A stretch of DNA of 54,226 bases from Pseudomonadales bacterium (lineage in GTDB: Bacteria; Pseudomonadota; Gammaproteobacteria; Pseudomonadales; UBA7434), in assembly GCA_013043705.1 (NCBI GenBank), contig JABDNS010000120.1, positions 1 through 54,226 of the forward strand, read 5' to 3'. Made by a program: the position numbers and the translations under genes. Below the pieces are notes generated by a model. That model did not search any database, was not told the origin of the DNA, and was given only the letters and a program-made list of their open reading frames with translations. Below, piece by piece: positions 8,024 to 27,488 of the stretch (position 1 is the stretch's first letter; every line of letters begins with the position of its first letter).

Positions 8024-8045
8024 CCGGTTTTCCCCCAATTCACTC

Positions 8046-8071: not shown

Positions 8072-11000
8072 TTAACTACTTTCATCGTCTGCTTCAGGCT
8101 CTTCACCTTCAGCTGCAGATGATTTGTCAATGATCGCCTCTAGCGATTCGCCATCGCCTTCATCGTCGCCAAGGTTATTCAGCACCGGCAATGGATCGAT
8201 GAAGCGCCACATGGGCATCGCCGACATCACACTACCGAGAACCGCTCCGCTACGCGCCAACCAGGCCACGTAGCCTGCAGACATACCAGCTGAAACTGCG
8301 AAGGTACTGCCGATAACGGGCGCGCTCTGCAATGCGTTTTCAACAATGTTCTCGCGCATCTTGTCTACCGCATCAACAAAGCCGTTGAACTGTACCAGCG
8401 TCAGTGGATCGCTAAACGGCGTATAGGTATTCTGTAAACGTACCAACTCAACGTTCAATGCGGTTTGTTCAACGCTCTTAAATTCATTATCGATATCAAG
8501 ATACTGTGCCGCCTCGATGCCCTGTTCAGAATCCGCTGCAAAATCGGCGTCAATTCCATTGCCTGAATCTTCATCTTTAATAGAAACCGAATCATCGTCT
8601 GAAAACCCGTCCTCGTAAGAATCGGTAAACTCACCTTCGGGTTCTGCAGCAACTTCCGGCTGTTCACTATTGTCTTCTACTTCCGTTTCGCCACCTGTTT
8701 CAGGCGCTGGCTCGACTTCAGGTTTTATCTCCGGCTTTGGAGGCTCGGGCTCGATAACCACCGGCGCAAAAACAGCAACTTTATTACTTGCTACCGACTC
8801 ATCCTGGCCTGCGTCATCGGTGTAACTGACCACTAGCGTAATAAACGAATTGATGTCTGCTTTTGCAATGGTATAGGTTGCCGAAGTTTCACCAACAATA
8901 TCTACACCGTTGCGCTGCCACTGGTAATTCAGTGCGCCCATGCCATCGTCGTCGGCAATGCTAATGGTTGCAGACAGCACGTCACCAGCTCCAGGGTTGG
9001 TACTGGATAGAGCAACCTTACCGGTTGGTGCATCGTTGGTATTGCCCACGGTTATGCGGAACGTATCGGTGGCCGGTGTTGAGCCAGCCTGGCCGTCGTC
9101 GGCGGTGAGTTCCACATCAATAAAGCCGACATCGCCGTTCAAAGGTGTGCCGCTGAAGGTGCGGGTCGCTGGATCGAAGTTCAGCCAGGCAGGCAACGCG
9201 CCGCCGCCACTCAACGTGGCCGAGTAAGCCAGGCTGTCGCCGGTATCAACATCACCAAAGGTATTGGCGTTGAACGTAAAGCTGAACTTCGCGTCTTCGC
9301 TGGCCGCTTGGTCGGCTATGGCGTTATCCAGCGTTGGATTATCGTTGCTGTTGGCAACGCTTATACGAAATGTGTCGGCTGCAGGTGTACCGCCATTGCC
9401 GTCATCGGCGCTGACTGCCACATCGATAAAGCCGACATCGTCGTTCAAGGGTGTTCCGCTGAACGTACGCGTAGCGGTATCAAACGACAGCCAGCCCGGC
9501 AGTGCGCCGCCACCGGCCAGCGTGGCCGAGTAGCTTAGCGTATCGCCCGTGTCTTCATCACTGAATGTATTGGCCGGCACGACGAAGCTGAATGCGCTGT
9601 CCTCGGTTGCCGGCTGGTCAGGAATAGGGTTCGCTACCAATGGATCGTCGTTGGCATCGCTAATACTGATCCCAAACCTGTCATCAGCTGTGCCGCCAGC
9701 GCCATCATCTGCGACAACTTCGATATCAATATCGCCCACGTCAACCTGCAGCGGCGTGCCGCTAAAGGTACGTGTCGCCGCATCAAACGATAGCCAGCCC
9801 GGTAACGGATCACCATTTGCTAACGTTGCCGTATAGCTTAGTGCCTGCCCTTCAAAGTCACCGAAGGTATCGCTGGCGAAGGTGAAACTAAACGCGCTGT
9901 CTTCGGTGGCAGCCTGGTCTGGTATCGGGTTGTCTACCGTAGGGTCATCGTTACGGTGATCGATGGTAAGGCGGAATGTATCGACCGCCGGCGAACCACC
10001 TTCACCGTCATCGGCTTTGACTTCTATATCGATAGTGCCAATCGCATCATGCCCTGGCTCTGCACTGGAGAAGGTTCGCGTGGCCGGATCAAAGTTGAGC
10101 CAGGTTGGCAGCGAACCGCCGCCAGCGAGCCGTGCGCTGTAAGTCAGTTCATCGGCATCTGCGTCTGCAAAAGTATTGGCCGCAAAGGTAAAGCTGAAAG
10201 CGTCATGCGCAAAACCGAGCTGGTCGGCGATCGGGTTGGGCACCGTCGGATTATCGTTGCTGTTGCCCACGGTAATGCGGAATACATCGCTGGCCGGCGT
10301 TGAACCGGTCTGGCTGTCGTCCGCAGTCACTTCCACATCAATAAAGCCGACATCGCCGTTCAGCGGTGTGCCGCTAAAGGTGCGCGTTGCTGCATCGAAG
10401 TTCAGCCAGGTTGGCAGCGCCGCGCCGCCACTCAATGTAGCCGAGTAAGTCAGGGTATCGCCATCGGCATCGCCAAAGCTGTTGGCGTTAAACGTAAAGC
10501 TGAATGCGGTATCTTCAATCGCGGACTGGTCAGCGATTGCGTTTTCGACCGTTGGGTTATCAGGTTGCGGAGTGACAAGAATATGTACCACGCCGCCGGT
10601 TTGTAGAGCACCACCGCTACCGGAGTTACCGTTGTCATTGACAAAGACGCCAAGCTGGGCGGGGCCAAAATAGTTTTGGTCGACCTTGTAGCCCAAACCA
10701 TCGAGTGCCGTGTTTAGCGAGGCAACACTGCCCGTCATGGTTATAGTTGATGTACCGACGCCCGAAATGCTGGACAAGCCGGAGACATCACCCGGCGTCA
10801 GCGTGCCGCGATTGGCCGTGAGCTGAATCGTCAGCGCACCAGAAGTATTCTGCGCTACGTCTACATCATCGACATCAATGGCATTACCATTGGCTGCGCT
10901 GAATACTAGCGTGCCGTCCTCTGGAACGCTTTGGTGCGTAATTTGCGCAAAATTGCTTAGATCCTGCCCTGCGTTGAGTGAACCGGGGGAATCAATCGCT

Positions 11001-14000
11001 CCAGCCCCCCAGGAAAATGTAGCGCCCGGGCCTTGCAGCTGAAGCGAAGCCCCCACAGGCGTCAATAGCCCGCCTTCAAATACGCCGATGTCTGTCGAGG
11101 CCATGCCCGTCGCCGGACCCTCCACGGCGACAAAACTGCCCTCGTAGCTAAGAAACTCCATCACGTTGCCGCGATTGTCTACCAATGCAATGCCATCGGG
11201 GTTGCCGCTGGTCGCATTCTGGATCTGGTCCGTCCCACTTGGCAGCCAAGCGACCGCACCGAATCCCATCGTTTCATTCGGAATAAACCCGGAGAGAGTT
11301 TCAGTATGGTATACAGATCCATCGAAACCGTTGTAAAGAACAATACTCCAACCGCTGAGATCAGTGCCTGCGACACCCGCGATTTCAACAAACTCACCGA
11401 AATCAATGCCGACATTGTCGTAGTGAATCTCGTTTATAAAGACCGCTCGGGGCGTTGACAGCGTGGGCGCATCGTTCACGCCGTCAACTGTAATCCGGAA
11501 TGTATCACTGGCGGATGTTCCTCCCTTGCCGTCATCCGCGATCACTTCAACATCTATAAAGCCAACATCACTATTGGACGGCGTACCACTGAATGTGCGC
11601 GCAGCCTCATCAAAAGTCAGCCAGGCTGGCAATGCACCGCCGCCAGAGAGCTGCGCACTGTAGGAAAGCGCATCGCCATCGGCATCGCCAAACTTGTCGA
11701 CTGCGAAAGTAAAGCTGAATGGACTGTCCTCAACGGCGACCTGGTCAGCTATGGGGCTGCCCAGTGCTGGATCCTTGTTCGGCACAGTCGCCATGCCAGG
11801 CTCATAAAAAGAAAGCGCATTAATTGAGCTCGCGTTCCCTCCGTTGCTGACAGTCAACGCAACATCAGACCCATCGAACAAGACCTGCGCATCGACAATC
11901 GTATTCGCAACGCTATCGAGTTCTGTTGCATTTATTTTCAGCGCGATAACATCCGTCTGCTCGGCAGTAACCTGCGTCTCACCCGCAGTTCCGACGGTGA
12001 TCGGGTCATTGGCACTATTGGTCTTCATCGTCACCAGCAGCGTGCCCTGGCTAACATTTACACCTCCAATGATGCTATCGACTTCTACGAGCTCAAGGCC
12101 CTGTATTTGTTTACTGGCGTCACTCATAAAATCCACGCCGAGTAAAAGATTTTGCTCACCATTAAGATTATCGTAAGTAACGATATTTGCATGCACAGCA
12201 GGGTCTGACCGGGCAATCAGGTAGGTACCGGCTGCAAGATTGGTATCTACGCCAACGGTTACCGCGCTTTCTACAATCGTCACGGCGTGAATGTTGGCGG
12301 GCGTGGTTCCATCCGCTTTCATCACGGCGTCTTCCAGAAGAAACTCGTATTCTCCGGTTGTAGGCGTATAGACAAGCAAATCGGTGTTTCCCACCGCGAT
12401 CAAGCCACCTCCTACCGCTGGTACAGATACGTCGGACCGCATCGAGACAACTATCTGGCCGGGTTGGAGATCATAGGTGCCGGCAGCACCGCCCACAAAA
12501 GTTTCCACTGTCACGCTGCTGCTGACAACGTGCAAAGCGCGGACATTGTCGGACAGAGACAGTTCGTTGACAAAGGTTCCATCGGTGGGCGTCACCTGGT
12601 TGCCATCACCGTATTCCAGCTGCAGGCCCGGATCAGCAAAAGAAACAATGTCATTGGACGCGAATGATGTCGTATTGTTATCGTTCGCAATGCCATCCAC
12701 CGACATCCACAACTCAGGCGTTGCCGCCGTACTGACGCTGATTGTTGCGGTGGCGATGTTCGAATCTAAGGCCCCATCATTAGCGCGGTAGGTAAACGTT
12801 TCTGGCCCGGTAAAACCTGCATCAGGAATGTATTCAAAGCTTCCATCAAAAGCGATGTCGGCAACGTAGATCTCATAATTCCCGCTGATATTTGAAGTGA
12901 AGGCAACCCGGGTACCGTCGGGAGAAAAACTGGGCACCTTGTCATCAAAGCCTCCATTGCTGGTCAATTTCTGCAAGTCCGAACCATCGGTGTTGACCAG
13001 ATAGATTTCGTTGTCGCCATCCTGGCTGGAATGAAATATAACCCTGCCACCATCGGGGGTGAATGCAGGTGCCCTGTCATGCGCGGGCGAGTCATAAAGT
13101 AGCGTTGGGGCCGTGCCATCGGCATTCATGATGTACAAGCCAAACTCGCCGCCATCCCGATTGCTGGTGAAAACAATCTGGCTGCCGTCGGGAGACCAGC
13201 GCGCATACCTGTCATTAAAAGTATTGTCGGTAAGCTTGTTAGCACTCCCTCCTGTAGAAGGCGCGGAATAGATTTCGAAATCACCATCGGCATCGGATAC
13301 AAAAAGAATCGTGCTGCCATCGGGTGACCACACCGCCTGTATCTCAGTCGAACCATTGGTGGTTACCTGCGTGCCGATACCTCCACTTGCCACATCGACA
13401 ACATAAATGTCGTCGTTGCCTGCCAGATTGGAGTGAAAGGAAATCTGCGTTCCATCCGGGGACCAGCTCGGTAACCCTACATTGCCAGTGCCGTGATTTG
13501 TCAATTGGGTCAGGTCACTACCACCTGAATTGACTATCCAGATTTCTTCGGTACCCGAACGATCAGAAACAAAGGCAAGCTTGCTTCCGTCTGGCGACCA
13601 AGCTACGTTCGTATCAATGCCTCCTGAGGGCGCAATTGCGATTTCGTTTACGAATCCGGTCGGCACAAGTTTCAGTACGCCGTTGGACGGGCCGTCAACC
13701 ACCCAGGCAGACATCGGATCGCCGTCAAAATCGTTGGCTAATAGCCCATCTGCTGCGTCAACCACCAGCGTATTATCCTGACCGGTTGAATAGTTCGGAT
13801 CGTCGCTGGCTACTGGAGCGACATTAATGTTCGCAACATCGATAATATCCACGTCGCGCGGAGTAACGACCCCTGTTACAACTGCGGTCACGCCGGATCC
13901 GTCAAGGTTGGCCTGGTAAATCTGGTCAGTGCCATCATCACTCCAGTACAGCTTGCCGGCAGCACCGTCCACGGCCAGGCCATAGGGAGCGGTTAAGCCA

Positions 14001-17000
14001 CTAACCACGGTTGTCAGGTTAGTGCCGTCGGTATTGACGCGCTTGATCGTGCCGGTAATGTCATCCGACCAGTAAAGCTGTCCAGCCACAAGATCCAGCG
14101 CGATATCAGCCGATGAACCCACGCCGCTGCTAACAAGATTTGATGTGCCAAGGCCGTCGAGAGAGGTTACTTTGATCCTGTTGACCGTCGGATCGGCCCA
14201 GTAGAGCTTGTCGTTGTCTACATCCAGCACGATGCCACTGGGCACTGAAGGGCTGCCAAGGATGCTTTCAATCATCGTTCCATCGAGGTTGGCTCGCTTG
14301 GCTTCGCCACCACCACCTTCAACCCAATAGATTTTTCCGTTGGTGAGGTCCAGGTCGATTGCAACGGTCCCCGGCACCGCACTGACAATGGTTTCAATGC
14401 CTGAGCCATCCAGGTCTGCACGCTGGATACTATTGAGCACGTCATCTGACCAATACACTTTGCCGCCCTGGATATCCACCGCCACGCTCAGCGGGCTGGT
14501 GAGACCCGTGACCAGGTCAGAGGTGTTGTTACCACCAAGATCCGCCGCTTGTATTTTGCCAGCAGCCTGGTCTACCCATACCATCTCGATTGAACGGGCA
14601 TTAACATCAATGCTGAATGTTGCGATCGCATCAGAATTATTCACATGTCCGTCGCTGGCAATGACCTCAAGATTCAACAAACCGACATCGGCAGCGCCCG
14701 GTGTGCCACTGAACGTCCTGGTTGCAGAATCAAAGCTCAACCATGAAGGCAGTACGCCTCCACCTGCGAGCTGAGCCGAATATGAAAGTGCATCGCCATC
14801 AACGTCGCTGAAGGTATTGGCTGGATACGTATAGCTGAAGGCGTTGAATTCGATCGCGCTCTGATTGGGAATAACATTTGCCGCTGTTGGCGCCGAGTTA
14901 TCGGCAATAACAATATCAAAGGTTGTCGAGGCAGGCGTATTTTCAATGTGCGGGTCGCTGGCGATAACCTCGATTGTCACCGTGCCAATATCCGGGGTGT
15001 CTGGTGTGCCTGAAAAAGTCTTGGTCCCCGCGTTAAAACTCAGCCAGACAGGCAGCGTGCCGCCGCCCGGGAGCTGCGCTGCATAGCTAAGGCTCTCAGC
15101 CTCTGGCTCGGCAAACGCATTGTTCGGCACCACGAAATTAAATGGCACAAATTCCGTGGCGGCCTGGTTGCTTATACCCGCGTTGACGCCGGGATCGGCA
15201 TTGTCACTGACGACAATATCAAAAGTCGCGACCGGCAGGGTGCCGCCGCCGCTATCGTCCGCAGTAACTTCAATCGTCAACGTTTCGATATCCGCAAACC
15301 CTGGCGTGCCGCTGAACTGCCTTGCGCCGGCATCGAAATTTAGCCACGCAGGCAGCGCGCTACCTCCCTGCACCTGTGCCGAGTAGGTAAGCGTGTCGCC
15401 CTGGTCTACATCGTTAAAAGTGTTCGCCGCAAACTTGAAGCTGAACGGCACATGCTCCGTGGCGACCTGGTTAGGTATCGAATTTTGCAGCACCGGGTCG
15501 TCATTGGTGTTGACCACAGTCAGGTTAAATGCGGAATAAGCATTGCTTGCTGACTTGCTGTCATTGGCAAGTACTTCGATAGCGATGGACCCCACGTCAC
15601 TGTTTAGAGGCGTGCCGTAGAATCGCCCCAGCGTCGCATCAAAATTTAACCAGGAAGGCAGCGTCAACCCGTCAACGGGCTTCGCCGTGAAAGTTAGCGG
15701 ATCGCTTTCAGCGTCACTGAAAGTCGAGGCAGGAATCGTGAAGTCGAAAAAAGCGTCCTCAAGCGTGCTCTGGTCTGCTATCGGATTCGCAGTTACCGGC
15801 GCGTTGTTTGGCGTGGCGCCCTGTTCGAATGCCCCGATGTCTGCCGAGCCATCGCCTCGCACATAACCGCGCGAGTCCATGGTCTGCGTATTGCTGCCAT
15901 TGTTAACGGCCAGACTAGCCCCCGCAAACGCATGGGTCTGTACGATGCCGCCGTTAAAGGCCAGCGCACCAAGGTTGGGATCGGCAATGATGTCGGTAGA
16001 GAAGCTGCCGCCACTGCCAGTGGTGTTTTCCACCAGGTTGGTGCCATCGCTTGAAAAAGACCCGGACACGTCTTTTTGCATGCCACCGGCCGTGTTGTCG
16101 GCAATGATTGTGTTACCCAGCGCGACGCTGTCGTAGTTGGCGATACCGCCACCAAATCCCACCGCATGGTTGGAAGCGATGGTCACGTTTTGCATCTGCA
16201 GTACGCCATTGTTGTAGATGCCGCCGCCTTCACCGCCAGACGCATTGGTATCTGTGGCCGTATTGCCGCTAATGGTCACATTGGTCAAATCCAGTACGCC
16301 GCCATCGTGATAAATGCCGCCGCCGTGGCCGGCGCTGTTACCGCTGATGGTGACGTTTTCAAGCAGGCTGTTCGCCCGCAGGTACAGGCCGCCGCCGCTG
16401 TCCGTAATTGTCGTGGAGTTATTGCTTGAAATGGTGGAATCCGTCAGCTGGATGTCGCCATCGGAATAAATACCCGCGCCTTCCTTCGCTGTGTTGCCGG
16501 TAACAACAATCCGCTCACCTTCAAATTCTGCGTTGCCATCATCCACCCAGATACCACCGCCTTTATCACTGGGCGCGCTACCGCCTGTAACAGTCAGGTC
16601 GCGCAGCGTGAGACCGGCATCGTTACTCTTCACGTGAAAAACGCGGTCGATGCCATTGGCATTGATTGTTGTATTGGTAGAACCGGCGCCTACGATGGTA
16701 ATGTCGCTGCTAATGTCGAGGTCGCCCTGTTCTGCGTCGTCTTCGCCAGTACCGCCAATGGCCAGCGTGTAGGTACCAGCAGCCAGCTCAATCACATCAT
16801 CCCCGCCCAGCGCATTAGCTTCCATGATGGCTGCGCGAAGCGAAGTATTGCCACCCGCATCCAGTGCTACGCCGTCGCCGGGATTGATATCTACCGTATC
16901 GGCAAAGGTGTTAACAGTGAAGATATCGAGTGTGGCCTGCCATTGCTGCTGGAAGCTGGCACTAAACGCCACTTGTGTTTCAATGTTGCCAGTTTGGTAT

Positions 17001-17890
17001 TCTAGGTCCCAGTCGCCGCCAAGACTGGCCGCACCGGTTAAGTCATCGCTGGCCGCTACATCGGCGCCGGTCACCGTGGCCAAGGAAGCGAGCATGGCTT
17101 GCCCGGCATCGCTGGCGGCGAGGTTGCAGCCATAAATCATCAGGTCGGCGCCTTCCGATAGCGCACTACCCCATGTTATTAACGCTTCATTGCTGGCGAC
17201 AATACCCTCGGCGTCCAGAACACCGTTGCCAAGCGCAATAGCGCCAGCTTCACCGTGGCTAACCAGGTGAATGGCTTCGAGGCCACTGTAATTACCCAGC
17301 ACGTCGGCAATTTGCTCGACGCCGTCTTTTGTGTCGTCAAGCAGGAATACGATGTACTGCGTGTCGCCGGCATCACTGGCGATGCCCCGCAACAATTGCT
17401 CGTAATCTGGCGTGGCAGCGTCCACGAAAATAATTTCCTGGCGCGCAAAATCCGGATCGTTCAACTCCGGCAGCAGCGCGGCCAGTGCATCGCTGCTGTT
17501 TTGGTTGGCGTTTTGAGCATCCCCGCCAGCACTAAAATCGAAATTCGCAACGTCGTTGTACAAATCGGCAAGCGATGCAAGGTCAACCGCTTCGGACGCG
17601 GCAATATCTTCACCGGGTTTGCTGTTGTTCAGCAGGAATGGCGCAACCAGGTCTTCCAGATTACTTTGATTGTCCAGCCCCACATTCGCATGAGCCAAGT
17701 CTTCATGCAGCAAGTCGTTCGCTGCTATACCGCCCAGCACATCGGCCGACAATAATACGCGCGGCTCGAGCCGCTCAAACACCGTATGCGCCTGGTCTTG
17801 CACATAAAGTCTATTGTGCGTGGCGCGGCTACATTTTTGGATAAGCGCACGGAGGGATCCGTGGCCGGAGAGGGGGCGACGTGGGTTCAT
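8072..17890 (-). CDS. Giant LEPR-XLL / DUF4347 multidomain exoprotein (3272 aa)
   Basis: Domains in order (approximate residues): basic leader without a clear Sec signal; FERLEPRVLLSAD (38-50), the LEPR-XLL motif; DUF4347 (152-320) with HLVSHG and IYGCN; a right-handed beta-helix region of choice-of-anchor Q/CSLREA type (323-690) with many GGGIY turns; four CADG/He_PIG-type Ig repeats (695-1097); a YWTD-like six-bladed propeller (1101-1355); an Ig/cadherin-like domain split by a TolB-like WSPDG propeller (1408-1680); an unrecognised beta-rich region (1723-2033); a fifth CADG repeat; a lamin-tail-like domain (FINEIHYDN, about 2150-2310); a cadherin-like domain; five more CADG repeats (2443-2951); a YQWQRNG Ig domain; a P/E-rich linker; and an acidic tail holding a hydrophobic segment (GYVAWLARSGAVLGSVMSAM, about 3195-3225). 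Likely exported and surface-bound or released, acting as an adhesin or matrix protein. The neighbouring M50/HlyD genes probably export it and the downstream kinase/EAL pair may control it. Function inferred, domains seen. Confidence 0.9.
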   Translation of the reverse strand: MNPRRPLSGHGSLRALIQKCSRATHNRLYVQDQAHTVFERLEPRVLLSADVLGGIAANDLLHEDLAHANVGLDNQSNLEDLVAPFLLNNSKPGEDIAASEAVDLASLADLYNDVANFDFSAGGDAQNANQNSSDALAALLPELNDPDFARQEIIFVDAATPDYEQLLRGIASDAGDTQYIVFLLDDTKDGVEQIADVLGNYSGLEAIHLVSHGEAGAIALGNGVLDAEGIVASNEALITWGSALSEGADLMIYGCNLAASDAGQAMLASLATVTGADVAASDDLTGAASLGGDWDLEYQTGNIETQVAFSASFQQQWQATLDIFTVNTFADTVDINPGDGVALDAGGNTSLRAAIMEANALGGDDVIELAAGTYTLAIGGTGEDDAEQGDLDISSDITIVGAGSTNTTINANGIDRVFHVKSNDAGLTLRDLTVTGGSAPSDKGGGIWVDDGNAEFEGERIVVTGNTAKEGAGIYSDGDIQLTDSTISSNNSTTITDSGGGLYLRANSLLENVTISGNSAGHGGGIYHDGGVLDLTNVTISGNTATDTNASGGEGGGIYNNGVLQMQNVTIASNHAVGFGGGIANYDSVALGNTIIADNTAGGMQKDVSGSFSSDGTNLVENTTGSGGSFSTDIIADPNLGALAFNGGIVQTHAFAGASLAVNNGSNTQTMDSRGYVRGDGSADIGAFEQGATPNNAPVTANPIADQSTLEDAFFDFTIPASTFSDAESDPLTFTAKPVDGLTLPSWLNFDATLGRFYGTPLNSDVGSIAIEVLANDSKSASNAYSAFNLTVVNTNDDPVLQNSIPNQVATEHVPFSFKFAANTFNDVDQGDTLTYSAQVQGGSALPAWLNFDAGARQFSGTPGFADIETLTIEVTADDSGGGTLPVATFDIVVSDNADPGVNAGISNQAATEFVPFNFVVPNNAFAEPEAESLSYAAQLPGGGTLPVWLSFNAGTKTFSGTPDTPDIGTVTIEVIASDPHIENTPASTTFDIVIADNSAPTAANVIPNQSAIEFNAFSYTYPANTFSDVDGDALSYSAQLAGGGVLPSWLSFDSATRTFSGTPGAADVGLLNLEVIASDGHVNNSDAIATFSIDVNARSIEMVWVDQAAGKIQAADLGGNNTSDLVTGLTSPLSVAVDIQGGKVYWSDDVLNSIQRADLDGSGIETIVSAVPGTVAIDLDLTNGKIYWVEGGGGEAKRANLDGTMIESILGSPSVPSGIVLDVDNDKLYWADPTVNRIKVTSLDGLGTSNLVSSGVGSSADIALDLVAGQLYWSDDITGTIKRVNTDGTNLTTVVSGLTAPYGLAVDGAAGKLYWSDDGTDQIYQANLDGSGVTAVVTGVVTPRDVDIIDVANINVAPVASDDPNYSTGQDNTLVVDAADGLLANDFDGDPMSAWVVDGPSNGVLKLVPTGFVNEIAIAPSGGIDTNVAWSPDGSKLAFVSDRSGTEEIWIVNSGGSDLTQLTNHGTGNVGLPSWSPDGTQISFHSNLAGNDDIYVVDVASGGIGTQVTTNGSTEIQAVWSPDGSTILFVSDADGDFEIYSAPSTGGSANKLTDNTFNDRYARWSPDGSQIVFTSNRDGGEFGLYIMNADGTAPTLLYDSPAHDRAPAFTPDGGRVIFHSSQDGDNEIYLVNTDGSDLQKLTSNGGFDDKVPSFSPDGTRVAFTSNISGNYEIYVADIAFDGSFEYIPDAGFTGPETFTYRANDGALDSNIATATISVSTAATPELWMSVDGIANDNNTTSFASNDIVSFADPGLQLEYGDGNQVTPTDGTFVNELSLSDNVRALHVVSSSVTVETFVGGAAGTYDLQPGQIVVSMRSDVSVPAVGGGLIAVGNTDLLVYTPTTGEYEFLLEDAVMKADGTTPANIHAVTIVESAVTVGVDTNLAAGTYLIARSDPAVHANIVTYDNLNGEQNLLLGVDFMSDASKQIQGLELVEVDSIIGGVNVSQGTLLVTMKTNSANDPITVGTAGETQVTAEQTDVIALKINATELDSVANTIVDAQVLFDGSDVALTVSNGGNASSINALSFYEPGMATVPNKDPALGSPIADQVAVEDSPFSFTFAVDKFGDADGDALSYSAQLSGGGALPAWLTFDEAARTFSGTPSNSDVGFIDVEVIADDGKGGTSASDTFRITVDGVNDAPTLSTPRAVFINEIHYDNVGIDFGEFVEIAGVAGTDLSGWSIVLYNGFDGSVYHTETLSGFIPNETMGFGAVAWLPSGTDQIQNATSGNPDGIALVDNRGNVMEFLSYEGSFVAVEGPATGMASTDIGVFEGGLLTPVGASLQLQGPGATFSWGAGAIDSPGSLNAGQDLSNFAQITHQSVPEDGTLVFSAANGNAIDVDDVDVAQNTSGALTIQLTANRGTLTPGDVSGLSSISGVGTSTITMTGSVASLNTALDGLGYKVDQNYFGPAQLGVFVNDNGNSGSGGALQTGGVVHILVTPQPDNPTVENAIADQSAIEDTAFSFTFNANSFGDADGDTLTYSATLSGGAALPTWLNFDAATRTFSGTPLNGDVGFIDVEVTADDSQTGSTPASDVFRITVGNSNDNPTVPNPIADQLGFAHDAFSFTFAANTFADADADELTYSARLAGGGSLPTWLNFDPATRTFSSAEPGHDAIGTIDIEVKADDGEGGSPAVDTFRLTIDHRNDDPTVDNPIPDQAATEDSAFSFTFASDTFGDFEGQALSYTATLANGDPLPGWLSFDAATRTFSGTPLQVDVGDIDIEVVADDGAGGTADDRFGISISDANDDPLVANPIPDQPATEDSAFSFVVPANTFSDEDTGDTLSYSATLAGGGALPGWLSFDTATRTFSGTPLNDDVGFIDVAVSADDGNGGTPAADTFRISVANSNDNPTLDNAIADQAASEDAKFSFTFNANTFGDVDTGDSLAYSATLSGGGALPAWLNFDPATRTFSGTPLNGDVGFIDVELTADDGQAGSTPATDTFRITVGNTNDAPTGKVALSSTNPGAGDVLSATISIADDDGMGALNYQWQRNGVDIVGETSATYTIAKADINSFITLVVSYTDDAGQDESVASNKVAVFAPVVIEPEPPKPEIKPEVEPAPETGGETEVEDNSEQPEVAAEPEGEFTDSYEDGFSDDDSVSIKDEDSGNGIDADFAADSEQGIEAAQYLDIDNEFKSVEQTALNVELVRLQNTYTPFSDPLTLVQFNGFVDAVDKMRENIVENALQSAPVIGSTFAVSAGMSAGYVAWLARSGAVLGSVMSAMPMWRFIDPLPVLNNLGDDEGDGESLEAIIDKSSAAEGEEPEADDESS
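9035..10560 (-). repeat. Five tandem ~102-codon CADG/Ig repeats inside the exoprotein gene
   Basis: Five consecutive units of about 306 bp encode the pattern [DN]xPxxxNxIxDQxxxEDxxFSF...LPxWLxFDxATRTFSGTPL..DVGxIDVEVxADD. The first and last units are also very similar at DNA level (shared stretches such as TCAATAAAGCCGACATCGCC on the plus strand), suggesting fairly recent duplication or gene conversion. Five related but more diverged units lie elsewhere in the same gene (about 14600-15800 and 11480-11780). Copy number in this stretch may be prone to assembly collapse. Confidence 0.85.
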
Positions 17891-17930: not shown

Positions 17931-18959
17931 TTAAGGCGAAAGTGCTGCAAAGCTTTCGCGGTTATGGTTCCCCTCCACCATGGTCTGTTGCGCCAATGCT
18001 GGCGCAATGTCGGACGCCTCTGTTGCCGGCGTCTCTTTTTGATTGCTATGAACGTTTGAATCCATTTGCTCTACTTCGCTATCCACATCGGCAATATTCT
18101 CAACGGGGAGGAAGTTCAGGTCGCATTTGAGGCCTGCAGGAATTTTATTTTCCGGGTTAGGCAGTGACAGGCGCACACCGAAAGTGCCGCTGGCCGCATC
18201 GCCCATTTTGTCGACGATGGTTACAGTGGCATCCTGTGTGGGTAGGCTTAATGTTTCAAGGCGCACCTTGGCAACCATGCCAACTTCTACATCACCAAAC
18301 ATATCGATGGGAACGATCGCATCTACTTTCAATGGATCCAGCTGTGCGATACGAACAACCGGCTGGTCTTCCACGTATTCGCCCTGGGCTTTGAAGGTTT
18401 GTACTACGAATCCGGAAATCGGCGAGCGCACAGTTTTTTGCTCTAACTGCTGGTAGGCACGATTAAGTTCCAGCTTGCGTACGCTAACCAGGTCGCGTGC
18501 TTGCTGGAGTTTCCAGGTAGATAGCTCAACCTCGCGATCAGCGTCGTCCTTGTTCTGGTAGGAAACCGCATCAGTGTCGTACAGCATATCGATACGCTTT
18601 TGCTGGCGCTCGGCAAAATCCAGGTTGATTTGCTCGAGGTAAACTTCAGCTTCAATTTCAGCGCGTTTTTTGGCTAATGCAACTGAAGCCTGCTCAACAC
18701 GCGAAGCCAAGGTGGCAACCACCTGGTTTTCGTCAACGTAATCACTGCGCTCTGCAAGCAGGTTTTCAACCACGCCCGGCACCGGGCTGGACAAATCGAT
18801 AACCTTGTGCGGGCTGACCACGCAATCCACCGGCGGCATGGACGCAGCAGCAAGCGAAGGCTCGTCCAGCGAGCCCTGCTGTGCGACCGAAACTGCACTG
18901 ATACCGATCAGTACAGCGATTGAAAGATATCTCTGATGATTTTTTTGAATGAAAAACAC
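17931..18959 (-). CDS. HlyD/RND-type periplasmic adaptor (membrane fusion protein)
   Basis: 342 residues. An N-terminal signal or anchor (YLSIAVLIGISAVSVAQ) is followed by a lipoyl-like half-motif (VVSPHKVIDLSSPVPGVVENLLAERSDYVDENQVVATL), a coiled-coil hairpin (about 88-165), the second lipoyl half (KTVRSPISGFVVQTFKAQGEYVEDQPVVRIA) and a beta-barrel (VDAIVPIDMFGDVEVGMVAKVRLE). The last 60 residues are polar and probably disordered. Adaptors of this fold link an inner-membrane transporter to an outer-membrane channel. The start is a GTG with GAGGTGGGG just upstream. The gene lies 40 bp before the giant exoprotein gene on the same strand, with 206 bp of AT-rich DNA upstream that could hold a promoter for the pair. 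No ATPase or TolC gene is nearby. Confidence 0.88.
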   Translation of the reverse strand: MFFIQKNHQRYLSIAVLIGISAVSVAQQGSLDEPSLAAASMPPVDCVVSPHKVIDLSSPVPGVVENLLAERSDYVDENQVVATLASRVEQASVALAKKRAEIEAEVYLEQINLDFAERQQKRIDMLYDTDAVSYQNKDDADREVELSTWKLQQARDLVSVRKLELNRAYQQLEQKTVRSPISGFVVQTFKAQGEYVEDQPVVRIAQLDPLKVDAIVPIDMFGDVEVGMVAKVRLETLSLPTQDATVTIVDKMGDAASGTFGVRLSLPNPENKIPAGLKCDLNFLPVENIADVDSEVEQMDSNVHSNQKETPATEASDIAPALAQQTMVEGNHNRESFAALSP

Positions 18960-19165: not shown

Positions 19166-21328
19166 CTAACCGGCCAGCTGCCGGGTCAGCAATAATTGAA
19201 GATGACGCCATAGGCGAATACCAACTGCTTGTTCTGTATGAACAAATCGAAGTTCCGCCAACTTGCCAAGATAGGCGTCCTGCGAGAGTGCGGGCAATTC
19301 GACATCGAACTGGAAAACTTCATAGATTGCCTTCAATCCCTGCTCGTCGCGCGCATCAACCGGTATACGCCCGCCATATTTGCTGCCTAACAGCGGGCTC
19401 GGCAATGCGTTGGTAGCCATTGGCACTTCAGAAACGCTGTTGCTTGCAACGCTTTTGAAGGGCTGGCTTTGCAAGCGAGCCTCTACTCGCTTGGTATGTC
19501 GGCGCACATCATCAACGTCATTTTGTTCAACCGCCACGCGTACCCGAACCTGCCTTAAATCGACCACGTGACCCAGCAGGTCTCCCTGTTTGACGAAGCG
19601 CCCGGGTAAATCCGCTGCCGAGCCAAGCGACAACCAGCCATCGCGTTGCGCCTTGATTTCCAGGCTACGGCTTTGACGCTCCAGGTCTTCGTACTCCGCC
19701 CGTGCACCACGTATTTCATCAACCACTTGTGCCGCTGCGTTCAAATCGGCAACCAGTAGCGACTGGTGCCTGACTTTAAGCTCGTACAACCTGGCTTTTG
19801 CCAGTTGCAAGCGCGACTGTAAGCCTGGCTCTTCAAGCTTGAGCAAGATATCGCCTTCGCTGACTTTTTGCCCATCATGGGCAATGATATGTGCAATGAA
19901 ACCATCTGCGCCACTTCGCACTGGCGCACGGTCGCCCAACTCAATAACGCCAGCCACATGTGTACTGTGTGGTAGCGGAATCACAAAAAACAGCAGGTAA
20001 ACTGAAGCGGCAATGCCCGCACAAACTGCTTTCATCCTGGTTGACTTGGCCTGGGCCGCCACTTCGGGTGCGATTTTTTTAAGCCCTTTAATAAGCGGCA
20101 TAACGAACTGCAAGAAAAGCATCCACACCGTTAGCACAATACCGAAGATAAAAAACTTTCCAACAATGTAGAGTGCAATGGTGAACGAAATAAACAATCG
20201 GTAGATAAATGCCGCAATACCATAGCTTATAAACCAGCGTCGCTCACCGCGGCTGGAGACTGGCGTTTTGGCCCCACTAATGCCCACGGCATAACGCTTG
20301 AACAGGTAAGCAAGATACTGATTGGAGCGCGTGCCAAGGTTGGGTATTTCTATGGCATCACAAAAAACATAGTAGCCGTCGAAACGCAGCAGTGGGTTAC
20401 CATTAAACAGCAGCGTACTTATACCGCCGATAAAAGCGACATTAAACATCGCATCGCGCAATGTACCTGGTTCCAGCCAGACCCAGGCAATCAGCGCAAT
20501 GCTCGACAACAACAGCTCAACGACAATACCGGCGGCTGCCACCGCCATGCGCTGATACTTGTTTGCGAAAGTGCTGCTCGATGATGCATCAACGTAGGGA
20601 ACAGGCATCAAAACCAGGAACATCAGGCCCATCTCATGGACTTCGGCACCCCAGCGCCGGGCGACCAGGCCATGACCCAATTCGTGTGCGCCTTTCAATA
20701 GCGGGTAGATAAACCACAGCAACAAAACGTTGCCCCAATCCATAAAGCGCGACTCGAAGTGCACCACAAGTTCCGGCCAACGACTCATCGCCAACAATGA
20801 GGCCCACACCGCAAGCACGCAGGCCAATGCAATCGCCGGCACGCCAAACACCGCTTTGCTTCTGGGCGCGAGCCAGCCCAGCCATTTGTCGGGGTCGACC
20901 AGGGGTATCTTTACCGCCAGCGGGCGCAACATGGCTTGCAGCCACGGTGATGGCTTTTTTGCGGTGCCCGCTGAAGTCGCAGCACCCTGCTCTTCTACCT
21001 CAGGCAAGCCGGCGAGCATGTCGGCCTCACGCAATGCCGCCAACAAGCGAATGATTTCTGCAGTATCGGGTGCCAGGTCGGGCAGTTGTACCCTGGCGGC
21101 ATCGAACGCCTCGCCTACCGTTTTTACGCTATTGAGTTGCTCAAGAAATAGTTTGGAAAATTCATCGCAGCGGAAATAACTAGCCGCAAGGGAATTGCTA
21201 ATCACATACCAGGTTGCATGGCGATACTGATGCTCAAATATGCGAACATGATTGTGCAAGAACGGCCGCGTATCGGCGATTTGCTGCCAGGGATCCTGCA
21301 CCATTTCACTCACGGCAACAGTGTCCAC
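19166..21328 (-). CDS. PqqD-like / M50 site-2-protease-like / HlyD fusion membrane protein
   Basis: 720 residues from the track start. An N-terminal PqqD-like domain (about 20-105) is followed by a polytopic membrane region (about 155-455) with the zinc-metalloprotease signature HELGH at 215-219 and a second S2P-type motif NPLLRFDG (311-318) carrying the expected third metal ligand Asp. The C-terminal periplasmic part is HlyD-like: a lipoyl half (VAGVIELGDRAPVRSGADGFI), a coiled-coil hairpin and a second half (IKAQRDGWL). M50-family proteins with adaptor domains occur in some peptide-export loci; here the protein probably takes part in export or processing of the giant exoprotein. The start is uncertain: GTG 21328 overlaps the upstream gene by 19 bp, GTG 21313 gives a GTGA overlap, and ATG 21304 leaves 5 bp. 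All three imply translational coupling. Confidence 0.88.
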   Translation of the reverse strand: MDTVAVSEMVQDPWQQIADTRPFLHNHVRIFEHQYRHATWYVISNSLAASYFRCDEFSKLFLEQLNSVKTVGEAFDAARVQLPDLAPDTAEIIRLLAALREADMLAGLPEVEEQGAATSAGTAKKPSPWLQAMLRPLAVKIPLVDPDKWLGWLAPRSKAVFGVPAIALACVLAVWASLLAMSRWPELVVHFESRFMDWGNVLLLWFIYPLLKGAHELGHGLVARRWGAEVHEMGLMFLVLMPVPYVDASSSSTFANKYQRMAVAAAGIVVELLLSSIALIAWVWLEPGTLRDAMFNVAFIGGISTLLFNGNPLLRFDGYYVFCDAIEIPNLGTRSNQYLAYLFKRYAVGISGAKTPVSSRGERRWFISYGIAAFIYRLFISFTIALYIVGKFFIFGIVLTVWMLFLQFVMPLIKGLKKIAPEVAAQAKSTRMKAVCAGIAASVYLLFFVIPLPHSTHVAGVIELGDRAPVRSGADGFIAHIIAHDGQKVSEGDILLKLEEPGLQSRLQLAKARLYELKVRHQSLLVADLNAAAQVVDEIRGARAEYEDLERQSRSLEIKAQRDGWLSLGSAADLPGRFVKQGDLLGHVVDLRQVRVRVAVEQNDVDDVRRHTKRVEARLQSQPFKSVASNSVSEVPMATNALPSPLLGSKYGGRIPVDARDEQGLKAIYEVFQFDVELPALSQDAYLGKLAELRFVHTEQAVGIRLWRHLQLLLTRQLAG

Positions 21329-23160
21329 AACTTAAGACCAATCCACTCGACCATGTCATGGAACAGGATAAAAGCATAGCTGCGCGAAGCTACCGAAATC
21401 TTAGCATTGCCCTGCATGCCTGGACGCAAAAAACCCAACGGCTGCGTTACCCTGGCTTCGGTACGATAAATTACTTCACCGTCACGCACTTCAAAAACAG
21501 TGGCGACGTTGTCGATAACAAAGGGAATGCGTTGTCCGGGAAACGCGGTAAGTGAAAGCCAACCACGCTGGCCAGCCTGCACTTCACGGATTTCGCGCTC
21601 GCTAACATCCAGCACAATACGGTATTCGTTCAGTGGCGCAATCTCGAACAGCACGTCACCGCGCTCTACCGGCGCACCCAGGGAAGACGAAAGATCACCA
21701 TCGATAATCACGCCATCAAGCGGCGATAACAACTGCGCACGATCCATTTGCTGCGCTACCAGGTCGAGCTTGGCATCGGCTTGTGCTATCTGTGCTTTTA
21801 GAATTTGAGATTGCGCATTGTCGCGCTCGGCCAGCGCCTTGCGGTACTGCTTGGATAGCTCGGCTTTTTCGCTGGTCCAGCGCGCGCGTTCAAGAATAAT
21901 TTCACGCTGGTCCAACTCGGCCAGCACCTCACCCATTTGAATCGTTTCGCCCGCCTTATGCAGTGCGCTGGCAATATAGCCATCGAACGGTGCAACCACC
22001 GCGCGCTGGATTTTCCCTTCAAGGCTGGCGGTCGCCGATACCCGGTGATCGCCAGGCACGGCAAAAAGCAACAGCAGCGCCGCGACAGAAAATACCGTGG
22101 CCAACTTGGTACGATAGAAACCTTCACCGAGCAGCCGCTGCAAATAGCGATGAAAACGCAAGCGAGTGGCGCGCCATGACCATGCCTCGCGGTACTGTTG
22201 TAGGCCAACGTAGGCGCCTAGTATTTCCGCGTACGCTGCAAGGCGCTGCATCGCTTCATTGCCCAGCGGCTGGGCACTTTGCACGCAAAGCGCACCCAGC
22301 GACTCACCCAATGACTGAAGGGGCAAGCAAACCGTAGGGTATTTTTTTGCAGAATCGCTTTCGCCGGCCACCACCTGGGCAAGCACGCGGCCAGCGTTTA
22401 GGGCTTTTCCTTCGTTGCACGCTTCCTGCATCAAGCTTTCAATTTTCTGCAGCGCCGCCACCCTGCGATCAAACTGGGTGACGTTAGAGATGCCCGCAAT
22501 CTTCAGGCCCGTTTTACTTTTATCATTCTGGCTGCTGCCGATTGCAATATAAACGCGCTCGCATTGCAGGGCATTTTTTAGTGCGTTACAAACGACGGGT
22601 ACGGCTTGCAGCAGAGATTTTTCGGCAAATGCTTTTTGCAGGCTCGCCAAATCATCCGGCGCTAGCAAAGCTGTTGTTGCAGCGCCTGGCGTATCAACTG
22701 TTTCTGTGTTGGCAGGCTGCGCTGTATCAAGCAGTAACTGCAGCCACGCGGCACCCCAGCCTAGAAGCTGGTTCACCACTGCATGATGTTCGGCACCTAC
22801 GTTGAGCTGCACCGCAATCGAACAGCTTGCAGCCTCGATATCATTTTCGAAGTGGAATGCTGCCAGGCCAGCCACCGGCAGCGGGTGCGAAACCAGTAAA
22901 TCATTGTCGGGCGCGATCGCCAGATTACCGGACACCGCCGAATTTGAGGTGCTGGTAGTTGGCACACCGCGGCGCGAAGCCAGCGCTGCTGCATCAAGCA
23001 GCGCAGCGTTTGCCGAAGTACCCTGCGGGTAGCTGGCAATGCAATGCTGGGCAATCGCCTGCGCACGCCCGGGCGCATCGCCAAGTACAACAACGGCGCT
23101 TTGCACACCCGGCAACATATGGCACAGCTGCGCCAACCAGCGCTGCACTATTGACTGCAT
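21310..23160 (-). CDS. GAF-domain / HlyD fusion protein
   Basis: 616 residues. Residues 1-345 are predicted cytoplasmic and include a GAF-like domain (about 184-316: LLQAVPVVCNALKNALQCERVYIAIG ... PTVCLPLQSLGESLGALCVQ). One transmembrane helix (LATVFSVAALLLLFAVPG, 353-370) leads to a periplasmic HlyD-type adaptor: lipoyl half (IQRAVVAPFDGYIASALHKAGETIQMGEVLAEL), coiled-coil hairpin (about 420-490), second half (LLSPLDGVIIDG) and beta-barrel (YRIVLDVSEREI). The fusion puts a small-molecule sensor fold on the inside and an adaptor on the outside of one helix, so export might be gated by a cytoplasmic ligand (inference). It is the first gene of the export/exoprotein locus and overlaps or abuts the M50-HlyD gene. 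Confidence 0.87.
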   Translation of the reverse strand: MQSIVQRWLAQLCHMLPGVQSAVVVLGDAPGRAQAIAQHCIASYPQGTSANAALLDAAALASRRGVPTTSTSNSAVSGNLAIAPDNDLLVSHPLPVAGLAAFHFENDIEAASCSIAVQLNVGAEHHAVVNQLLGWGAAWLQLLLDTAQPANTETVDTPGAATTALLAPDDLASLQKAFAEKSLLQAVPVVCNALKNALQCERVYIAIGSSQNDKSKTGLKIAGISNVTQFDRRVAALQKIESLMQEACNEGKALNAGRVLAQVVAGESDSAKKYPTVCLPLQSLGESLGALCVQSAQPLGNEAMQRLAAYAEILGAYVGLQQYREAWSWRATRLRFHRYLQRLLGEGFYRTKLATVFSVAALLLLFAVPGDHRVSATASLEGKIQRAVVAPFDGYIASALHKAGETIQMGEVLAELDQREIILERARWTSEKAELSKQYRKALAERDNAQSQILKAQIAQADAKLDLVAQQMDRAQLLSPLDGVIIDGDLSSSLGAPVERGDVLFEIAPLNEYRIVLDVSEREIREVQAGQRGWLSLTAFPGQRIPFVIDNVATVFEVRDGEVIYRTEARVTQPLGFLRPGMQGNAKISVASRSYAFILFHDMVEWIGLKLWTLLP

Positions 23161-24828: not shown

Positions 24829-25578
24829 CTAGAACCAGGCACGCAAGCCAAACACCAACGCACCCTCCTCGCTTCGTTCTCCCGCTTCGCGCTCAAATCT
24901 TTTTGTATTGCCGTACGCTTTTTCCCAATTGATGCCGATGTAGGGAGCAAATTCGCGACGAACTTCGTAGCGCAAACGAAGCCCGGCCTCAATTTCTGAT
25001 AAGCCAGAACCAACACCCGTTTTCATATCGTTATGCGCATGCGCGTTAACTTCTATTTCCGGCACCAATGCCCAGCGCTGCGTGAGCATCAGCTCATATT
25101 CCGCTTCGGCGCGCAAAGCGCTTCGCCCCGACCTGCCCAGAAAAAGCGAAATATCCACTTCAAACCAGTACGGCGCCAGGCCATTCAAGCCAATCGCTAA
25201 CCAGTTTCGTCGTGGCCCTGGCTCGAAATCGCGGCGCAGGCCAAGCTGCCAATCCCAGTACGGCAGAATTGCCCTGCTGTAACGCAACTGCCACTCCGAG
25301 ACCTGGGTTTGACCATCGGCGCGCTGCATCTCGAAATCCAACCACAATTTGTCCAGGTCATAGCCTAGCCAGCCCGCGCCCTCAAGCACTTCAGGATCTA
25401 CGCCATCAACCGCCCTTTGCTCTAGCTGCTCTAACACCAGCATCGCGAGCAAGGGGTTATCCTTGCTTGCGGCCGTTACGGTGAATGGCATCAACAATAA
25501 TACCGGCAACAGTGCCTGAAACATTATTTTCAATAACGAGCCGCCGGCAACCAAATCACAGCGCGTAATCAAATTCAT
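24829..25578 (-). CDS. copB: Outer-membrane copper resistance protein CopB/PcoB
   Basis: 249 residues from the chosen start. A signal peptide (MFQALLPVLLLMPFTVTAAS) precedes a CopB beta-barrel with family signatures: GWLGYDLDKLWLDFEMQ, RYSRAILPYWDWQLGLRRD, LGLNGLAPYWFEVDISLFLG-like wording, YELMLTQRWALVPEIEVNA and the C-terminal AFGLRAWF-type strand. CopB is thought to sequester or expel copper at the outer membrane with CopA. The Met/His-rich N-terminal segment found in many CopB proteins is absent. I chose ATG 25578, whose ATGA overlaps the copA stop, rather than the track start lying inside copA; this indicates translational coupling. Confidence 0.9.
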   Translation of the reverse strand: MNLITRCDLVAGGSLLKIMFQALLPVLLLMPFTVTAASKDNPLLAMLVLEQLEQRAVDGVDPEVLEGAGWLGYDLDKLWLDFEMQRADGQTQVSEWQLRYSRAILPYWDWQLGLRRDFEPGPRRNWLAIGLNGLAPYWFEVDISLFLGRSGRSALRAEAEYELMLTQRWALVPEIEVNAHAHNDMKTGVGSGLSEIEAGLRLRYEVRREFAPYIGINWEKAYGNTKRFEREAGERSEEGALVFGLRAWF

Positions 25579-27488
25579 ACTACGCGCACCTCGCGGAACA
25601 TACCGGGCATGTGATACATCAGGTGGCAATGGTACGCCCAGCGGCCAAGCGAATCCGCAGTAACCAGGTAGCTGATACGTGAACCTGGCTGAACCAGCAC
25701 AGTGTGCTTGCGCGGAATTTTATCCGGTTCACCCGTTTCAAGTTCACTCCACAAGCCGTGCAAATGCATGGGATGCGTCATCATGGTGTCGTTAATTAAT
25801 GTGAAGCGAACGCGCTCACCGTGCTTGAGTATGATTGGATCGGCATCGGCAAATTTAATACCATTCATCGACCACATGTAGCGGTTCATATTGCCAGTGA
25901 GGTGCAGCTCAATTTCGCGCTGTGGCTCCCGCCTGTCTCGCGTTGGATGCAAGCTAACGAGATCGGCGTAGCGCAACACGCGGCGACCATAGCGCGTGGC
26001 ATGATCACGCAGACCAAGGCCAGGGTCGGTCAAGCCGCTGGGCGCCTGCTCCACACGCATATCAACATGCGGCCCAAACTCTGAGGCGAAGTGTGTGATT
26101 GGCTTTTCACTGACATAACCTGCTGGCGACAGACCCGCATTGCGCTCACTGGTGACAGGCATTGCATGACCAGCATGATTCATAGCACCGTGATTCATAG
26201 CACCGTGATTCATAGCACCATGGTTCATCGAGCTGTGATCCATTACATCGTGGTTCATTGCACCATGGTTTTCATGCGCCGCATCGCCACCACCTTGGTG
26301 CGCAGAATGATCCATACCCTGCATCGACATACCCATATCGCGATGGCCGAGCACCGGCGCGTGGTCCATCGCGGGAATATCTGCCTTCAAACCAGGGCCG
26401 GGCGTTAAAGTGCCGCGTGCATAGCCTGTACGATCGATGCTTTGCGCGAAAAGGGTATAAGCGCTACTTGCGTCAGGCTCAACAATGACATCATAGGTTT
26501 CTGCCACACCAATACGAAACTCGTCGACACTAATCGGCTCGATATTCTGGCCATCGCTGGCCACCACCTTCATTTTTAAACCAGGTATACGAAAATCGAA
26601 AATAGTCATCGCTGCTGCGTTGATAATACGCAGCCGAATTTTTTCGCCCGGTTTGAAAACCCCGGTCCAGCCCTGCTCGGGTGTACGCCCATTGCATAAA
26701 AAAGTATAGGTATAACCCGTTACATCGGCGATGTCCGTATCGCTCATACGCATTTGGTTCCACATGGTGCGCGCCTTCCAGGTTTCAGCAATGCCTTTAT
26801 GCTTAATGTCTTTTAGGATGTCACCAACAGTGCGTTCGCGAAAGTTATAGTAGTGACTCATTTTCTTGAGCTTGGCATAAATATCTTCGGGCTGTTCGTC
26901 AGACCAGTCGGATAGCATCACCACATAATCGCGATCGTAGGCAACGGGATCTTCGCCGGCGGGGTCGATAACGATTGCGCCGTACAATCCTGTTTGCTCC
27001 TGAAAACCGGAATGGCTGTGATACCAGTACGTGCCACTCTGTTTAACATCAAACTGGTAAGTAAACGTAGCGCCCGGCGCAATACCATCGAAACTCAACC
27101 CCGGCACGCCATCCATACGCGTGGGCAAAATCATGCCATGCCAATGGATTGAGCTTGTATAAAGTAAATTATTCGTAACCTGCAGCGTAACCCGCTCACC
27201 CTCTTGCCAGCGCAGCACAGGCGCGGGCACAGAGCCATTAATTGCAGTTGCGCTTCGCACACGCCCGGTGAAATTTGCTTGCCTAAGATCAATATTCAAT
27301 GCGAAATTATTGCCGCGTAGCGTTTGGGTTTCGGTGAGAGCGGGCGCAGCATGCCCCGCCAAAGCAGCTAATGCTGGCGGCGCGGTACCCAGCAAGGCAG
27401 AACAGGACAATCCTGTAACAAATTGCCTGCGCGATAAATGCAGCGGGCGATTCTGGCCTGCATGGAATTTTTCGAACTTGAACGGCAT
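25575..27488 (-). CDS. copA: Multicopper oxidase CopA, TAT-exported copper resistance protein
   Basis: 637 residues. A twin-arginine signal (LSRRQFVTGLSCSALLG) is followed by three cupredoxin domains carrying all four multicopper-oxidase copper motifs: HWHGMILPTRMDG, YWYHSHSGFQEQ, HPMHLHGLWSE and YHCHLMYHMPGMF. A Met/His/Asp-rich insert (MDHSAHQ..., then the pentad MNHGA several times, about residues 375-450) is the expected copper-binding region. CopA probably oxidises Cu(I) in the periplasm. It forms an operon with copB. No strong Shine-Dalgarno precedes the ATG at 27488. A 230-bp spacer separates it from the divergent desaturase-family gene; no cop regulator (CopR/CueR) is in the window. 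Confidence 0.94.
   Translation of the reverse strand: MPFKFEKFHAGQNRPLHLSRRQFVTGLSCSALLGTAPPALAALAGHAAPALTETQTLRGNNFALNIDLRQANFTGRVRSATAINGSVPAPVLRWQEGERVTLQVTNNLLYTSSIHWHGMILPTRMDGVPGLSFDGIAPGATFTYQFDVKQSGTYWYHSHSGFQEQTGLYGAIVIDPAGEDPVAYDRDYVVMLSDWSDEQPEDIYAKLKKMSHYYNFRERTVGDILKDIKHKGIAETWKARTMWNQMRMSDTDIADVTGYTYTFLCNGRTPEQGWTGVFKPGEKIRLRIINAAAMTIFDFRIPGLKMKVVASDGQNIEPISVDEFRIGVAETYDVIVEPDASSAYTLFAQSIDRTGYARGTLTPGPGLKADIPAMDHAPVLGHRDMGMSMQGMDHSAHQGGGDAAHENHGAMNHDVMDHSSMNHGAMNHGAMNHGAMNHAGHAMPVTSERNAGLSPAGYVSEKPITHFASEFGPHVDMRVEQAPSGLTDPGLGLRDHATRYGRRVLRYADLVSLHPTRDRREPQREIELHLTGNMNRYMWSMNGIKFADADPIILKHGERVRFTLINDTMMTHPMHLHGLWSELETGEPDKIPRKHTVLVQPGSRISYLVTADSLGRWAYHCHLMYHMPGMFREVRVV
26165..26235 (-). 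repeat. Tandem 15-bp repeats encoding MNHGA in copA
   Basis: On the plus strand a 15-bp unit similar to TTCATAGCACCGTGA occurs at least three times in a row, encoding MNHGA pentads in the copper-binding insert. Slippage here would change the number of metal-binding pentads without shifting the frame. Confidence 0.8.

Follow-up and report, generated by a model that had tools for sequence, protein, structure and literature searches.

A leader-binding-type domain, a membrane metalloprotease and an HlyD adaptor in one chain: a candidate hub for the processing and export of giant LEPR-XLL proteins

Introduction

Few bacterial proteins are larger than the LEPR-XLL giants, and the open-access papers found assign no function to the LEPR-XLL domain. 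The window analyzed here, the whole stretch of 54,226 nucleotides of contig JABDNS010000120.1 from a Pseudomonadales bacterium, encodes one of these giants in the same gene cluster as a protein that joins a PqqD-like domain, a site-2 protease and an HlyD adaptor. The original prediction proposed that this single protein could recognize a leader, act within the membrane and pass its substrate into a periplasmic duct. The evidence gathered from conservation, structural models and gene neighborhoods suggests that the protein probably serves, in the inner membrane, as the hub of a machinery in which a leader guides the processing and export of giant surface proteins of the LEPR-XLL type.

Gene and operon

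The open reading frame at 19166-21328 was confirmed as a gene; it is encoded on the minus strand, starts with GTG and yields a product of 720 aa. It lies in a compact minus-strand order (GAF-HlyD, RRE-M50-HlyD, periplasmic HlyD, giant, hybrid histidine kinase and REC-GGDEF-EAL), with the beginning of the M50 gene lying within the GAF-HlyD frame. The features of the cluster are as follows.

19166-21328, minus strand: RRE (PqqD-like)-M50 metalloprotease-HlyD fusion, 720 aa
21014-21295, minus strand: N-terminal RRE/PqqD-like domain of the fusion, putatively leader-binding, residues 12-105
19985-20890, minus strand: membrane M50/site-2-protease core, residues 147-448
20672-20686, minus strand: HELGH zinc-binding motif, residues 215-219
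20375-20398, minus strand: NPLLRFDG, residues 311-318, with the third metal ligand D317
19169-19978, minus strand: periplasmic HlyD/membrane-fusion module, residues 451-720, with lipoyl half-motifs, helical hairpin and barrel
21310-23160, minus strand: GAF-HlyD adaptor, 616 aa, with one transmembrane helix at residues 353-371
17931-18959, minus strand: periplasmic HlyD adaptor, 342 aa, with a signal-peptide-like N-terminus
8072-17890, minus strand: giant protein (proposed cargo), 3272 aa, with LEPR-XLL, DUF4347, He_PIG Ig-like repeats and beta-propeller repeats
17717-17782, minus strand: LEPR-XLL segment of the giant, ...FERLEPRVLLSADV..., the proposed leader or recognition site
8186-8308 (approximate ends), minus strand: C-terminal hydrophobic segment of the giant, SAGMSAGYVAWLARSGAVLGSVMSAMPMWRFIDPLPVL, with acidic tail
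5087-8038, minus strand: hybrid histidine kinase, PAS-HisKA-HATPase-REC-Hpt-Hpt, downstream of the giant
3090-4883, minus strand: REC-GGDEF-EAL protein

The REC-GGDEF-EAL protein is a possible c-di-GMP regulator of the locus. A relative of the hybrid histidine kinase was also found directly downstream of the second LEPR giant of the same genome (L168:10444-13563). The window further encodes, at 25575-27488, a multicopper oxidase carrying a MNHGAMNHGAMNHGAMNH metal-binding repeat.

Domain architecture of the fusion protein

The protease core was recognized by Pfam above the cut-off (Peptidase_M50, residues 213-410, E = 1.3e-7) and displayed the two hallmarks of an M50 site-2 protease, an HExxH in a membrane helix and a distal aspartate in NxNPxxxxDG. 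In a 10-sequence alignment (A1), the core presented 34 invariant columns that include all the metal ligands, with H215, E216, H219, N309, N311, P312 and D317 unchanged throughout. In a wider alignment, HExxH was present in all 45 domain-keeping rows, the divergent L092 being the exception, and the FDG aspartate was likewise intact across domain-keeping homologs of two clades, with one divergent exception. The earlier reading of HELGH and NPLLRFDG as a full set of site-2 protease ligands was therefore confirmed, on the minus strand, by the Pfam match and by the conservation among orthologs, the lack of which had been named as a refutation. Chance occurrence of the two motifs was ruled out by this family-wide conservation together with the models. 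The fusion of the membrane core to an adaptor, at the place where a transporter would sit, could also mean that the M50 fold performs no proteolysis and simply provides the HlyD duct with a channel through the membrane or a scaffold; this is very improbable, considering that the catalytic glutamate is retained along with the metal ligands in every domain-keeping homolog over both clades except L092.

The closest curated family was found to be the daptide leader protease (NCBIfam NF041824, daptide_HExxH; E = 5e-43), although the score of 147.6 bits is below the curated cut-off of 300. Daptide MpaP/DapP shares with the present protein the fusion of an RRE to an M50 intramembrane protease and works on an N-terminal motif of the L-E-x-M-E type, whereas the present protein adds an HlyD module and its proposed cargo has 3,000-15,000 residues instead of being a small peptide. 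In addition, the operon lacks the RiPP-modifying enzymes of daptide clusters (aminotransferase, dehydrogenase and methyltransferase) and contains HlyD, giant and signaling genes instead; with its different score, cargo and enzymes, the locus does not qualify as a daptide cluster. The epipeptide metalloproteases YydH/LiaK (NF058609) displayed weak similarity in the M50 core (E = 4e-6), but those proteins are short, act on peptide cargo and carry no HlyD module.

The N-terminal domain was assigned at the family level, by profile and fold tests, as the sequence from the window alone gave no Pfam match for a PqqD-like domain. PF05402 (PqqD) was matched by 24 of 29 homologous N-termini, with a best E-value of 5e-8, and the family profile matched the solved PqqD structure 3g2b (E = 5e-4) and, weakly, the TfuB1 RRE (0.24). 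Since the HlyD part dominated the Foldseek search with the whole model, a separate AlphaFold model was computed for the N-terminal domain (residues 1-125); it presented the b-b-b-a-a-a order of RREs, with a pLDDT of about 90 over residues 11-105. The best PDB matches of this model were the leader-bound structures of the lasso-peptide RREs TbiB1 and TfuB1 (probability 1.00), with modest E-values (2.6e-3), and the top matches were all RREs. The family thus combines similarity to the PqqD profile with a winged helix of three strands and three helices, and the PqqD-like domain described earlier, borne out in this manner, is almost certainly an RRE as judged from profiles and model.

The C-terminal part was matched by HlyD_D23 (residues 457-628, E = 1.3e-8) and by HlyD_3 in Pfam, and Foldseek placed its AlphaFold model in the membrane-fusion protein (MFP) fold of MacA/MexA (E about 1e-11), in agreement with the HlyD module originally proposed. 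In the model, membrane helices separate the RRE from the adaptor, an arrangement consistent with an RRE in the cytoplasm and an adaptor in the periplasm.

Association with LEPR-XLL giants

The N-terminus of the giant exceeded the cut-off of the LEPR-8K model (NCBIfam NF012209; 31 against 17 bits) and is thus a full member of the LEPR-XLL family, which is linked here to an RRE-M50-HlyD protein. The same genome contains one other LEPR-XLL giant (5026 aa; 33 bits with the same model), located on contig C123 beside the only close paralog of the fusion protein in the genome (35% identity).

The co-occurrence of both partners was evaluated in two genome samples, for which the p-values are over-optimistic, as the samples overlap in part and the sampled genomes are related: among 274 genomes of the class, the M50-HlyD protein was present in 19 of 23 LEPR genomes compared with 39 of 274 overall (p = 5e-15), and strong homologs in 16 of the 23 and in 5 others (21 overall; p = 1e-16), while among 329 genomes of the phylum the protein was present in 39 of 40 LEPR genomes compared with 87 overall (p = 4e-25), and strong homologs in 31 of the 40 and in 5 others (36 overall; p = 3e-30). 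Physical linkage is stronger evidence than these values. For the 35 LEPR open reading frames with a listed M50-HlyD gene on the same contig, the distance to that gene was within 6 kb in 28 and within 16 kb in 34; some of the other giants are cut off by the end of their contig. In each sample, five genomes with a strong M50-HlyD protein had no detectable LEPR domain, and some of these may reflect broken contigs or divergent leaders, such as 'LESQERRILFSADAA' in L075. Genome G213 encodes a long LEPR-like giant and no matched M50-HlyD gene. The LEPR matches in G120 and G237 lie in short frames (99 and 168 aa, respectively) and are probably due to chance. In our judgement, the LEPR giants are very probably the substrate of the RRE-M50-HlyD protein.

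The LEPR motif as a putative leader

The 48 LEPR N-termini conformed to h-E-x-[LM]-E-[PQED]-R-[ILFVY]-L-[LYF]-S-[AG]-[DE], with E at position 2 in 46 of the 48 and L/M/I at position 4, E at position 5 and R at position 7 in all of them, a consensus whose tightness is partly by construction because the set was gathered by motif pattern or with the LEPR-8K model. The segment is preceded by a basic, non-hydrophobic stretch, and the giants present no Sec-like hydrophobic core at the N-terminus, in contrast to the clear ones of the periplasmic HlyDs.

In daptides, an RRE recognizes the leader motif ELExMEAP, and an M50 protease that depends on the RRE removes it; L(-7) and M(-4) of this motif proved essential for MpaB RRE-mediated processing. 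Cleavage takes place where the motif ends, the -1 residue following MEA (PMC10036551). The daptide L-E-x-M-E lines up against h-E-x-[LM]-E of the LEPR consensus. By analogy, the LEPR motif is likely to be the ligand of the RRE, and cleavage by the M50 core at the motif may be regarded as only slightly less likely, both in our judgement; a cut near LEPR|xLLSAD is predicted because the daptide motif ends at its cleavage site. The suggestion in the original prediction that the PqqD-like domain could be paired with the LEPR-XLL segment gained good indirect support through co-occurrence, linkage, the two independent pairs in one genome and the daptide parallel.

Giants of the distant M50-HlyD clade carry LEPRxxFDGA or LEPRxMLDAA instead (L080, L106 and L108), so that in this small sample the leader type appears to follow the protease clade. 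Loci of the same clade (L080, L081, L086 and L089) also encode proteins of the TolC family, one of which carries a SPOR domain, as well as cadherin-like proteins whose N-termini read LEPRxxFDGA or LEQRVVLDAA.

SecA-like ATPase and the possible route of export

In 23 of 28 scorable close-clade loci, as counted from their gene lists (for example L059, L061, L003, L007 and L065), the gene directly downstream of M50-HlyD was found to encode a SecA-like ATPase roughly 650 aa long. This ATPase contains DEAD, preprotein-binding and P-loop domains and resembles SecA and accessory SecA2 in having NBD1, the preprotein-binding domain and NBD2, with Walker motifs intact in most cases and degenerate ATP-binding motifs in L002, L005 and L006. 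It differs from both in its co-encoding with HlyD adaptors and in its extent, as nothing aligned beyond about residue 680 of housekeeping SecA, no SecA_SW match was obtained, and the scaffold, wing, two-helix finger and zinc tail are absent. The genome of the window contains no SecA-like gene and only the housekeeping SecA. In a maximum-likelihood tree, the SecA-less loci fall at three places within SecA-bearing branches; loss of the gene is therefore the simplest reading, and the lineage of the window is apparently one case of it.

The conserved unit also comprises at least three HlyD-type proteins, which is the number found in the cluster of the window, and mostly the SecA-like ATPase, so that the earlier idea, in which one protein alone delivers its substrate to a duct, is probably an oversimplification. 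Within the stretches examined, the close-clade clusters contained no ABC exporter or RND pump gene, and the RND pair of the window lies more than 10 kb from the M50-HlyD cluster. Neither a TolC gene nor a motor gene is present in the cluster of the window itself; the one OEP protein of the genome is encoded elsewhere, and a TolC-type gene belongs to the cluster only in the distant clade, where a TolC-family protein is accompanied by two HlyDs and no ABC pump (L081 and L086). RTX calcium repeats, typical of type I substrates, were found in most of the giants from SecA-type loci whose sequence was examined (8-22 repeats), and their occurrence in several of these giants indicates an extracellular destination.

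Type I secretion signals are C-terminal and uncleaved. The HlyB-HlyD-TolC systems share with the present one the HlyD adaptors, the RTX giants of many relatives and a cargo devoid of a Sec signal, whereas here the cluster has no ABC transporter, the defining component of a type I system, but an M50 protease, often with a SecA-like ATPase, and the cargo has a conserved N-terminal leader. In the main rival explanation, one of two PrtD-type ABC systems of the genome exports the giants, and the M50 locus is involved in processing only: the RRE-M50 part would trim the LEPR leader, an ordinary ABC-HlyD-TolC system encoded elsewhere would export the giant, and the HlyD module would only hold or recruit the cargo. 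Two pairs of PrtD-like ABC and HlyD genes are indeed present in the genome, unlinked to the cluster of the window (C118:3422-5155, L167; C123:1-2175, L168), one of them sharing its contig with the second LEPR giant, and the RTX repeats of many SecA-type giants would suit such a route. Nevertheless, close-clade clusters encode three proteins of the HlyD type, often together with a SecA-like ATPase, yet were devoid of an ABC exporter in the stretches examined, the distant-clade cluster has its TolC-family protein and two HlyDs without an ABC pump, and the conserved N-terminal motif is left unexplained by C-terminal, uncleaved signals. Restriction of the locus to processing is considered unlikely, and export through the HlyD duct is, in our judgement, rather likely. 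The PrtD-like pair on C118 is preceded by a gene for a small GSGSGS-repeat protein.

Proposed mechanism

For the preferred reading, in which the fusion protein is a hub of processing and export, we infer binding, cleavage and its site, assembly of the duct, and the direction and energy of transport as follows. Through strand addition, the mode in which RREs bind RiPP leaders, the cytoplasmic RRE would capture the N-terminal hEx[LM]E.R motif of the freshly synthesized giant, and the M50 core, whose membrane active site follows directly after the RRE, would cut in or just after the motif, near the predicted LEPR|xLLSAD position. The processed N-terminus would then pass to a periplasmic duct formed by the HlyD modules of M50-HlyD, GAF-HlyD and the separate HlyD, with a TolC-type protein of the outer membrane as its docking partner. 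The SecA-like ATPase, whose gene directly follows that of the M50 protein, would drive the transfer in most relatives; with the apparent loss of this ATPase in the lineage of the window, transfer there would have to rely on housekeeping SecA or on some other source of energy.

A broader and more tentative reading, possible but somewhat less likely than not, is that the locus represents an undescribed trans-envelope system, in which an RRE-guided fusion of intramembrane protease and HlyD replaces the ABC transporter, threads giant RTX/Ig adhesins out N-terminus first and removes a RiPP-like leader, with a trimmed SecA-like motor without the SecY-pushing parts in most lineages. If true, RiPP-style leader recognition would be applied to giant surface proteins, a site-2 protease would sit at the position expected for the transporter, and SecA would have been rebuilt as the motor of an adaptor duct. 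A search of open-access papers retrieved no matching description of the RRE-M50-HlyD combination or of an export route for LEPR giants; the parts are known, and the combination is new within the open-access literature searched.

C-terminal segment and signaling genes

The last alternative concerns quality control or regulated release, in which the M50 core would cut a regulator or a giant anchored in the membrane by its C-terminal hydrophobic segment, the RRE would sense the N-terminus of the giant as a status signal, and the histidine kinase and c-di-GMP enzyme would belong to the same pathway. Such a role would agree with the hydrophobic segment and acidic tail common to all three complete SecA-less giants, and with the hybrid histidine kinase and/or GGDEF-EAL protein that adjoins the giant in the window, on C123 and in L071. 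It is nonetheless improbable, more so than a function in processing only, given that all subtypes conserve the N-terminal motif, whereas only three giants, among the C-termini examined, carried the C-terminal segment, and that the nearest relatives among curated families are leader proteases from peptide clusters.

The three giants with this C-terminal segment are those of the window, C123/L017 and G190/L169. A stricter first pattern retrieved the giant of the window only, and a looser one retrieved all three; the shared pattern, SAGxxxWxxRxGxLLxSxxSxxPxWxxxDPLP, may represent a membrane anchor or a retention signal.
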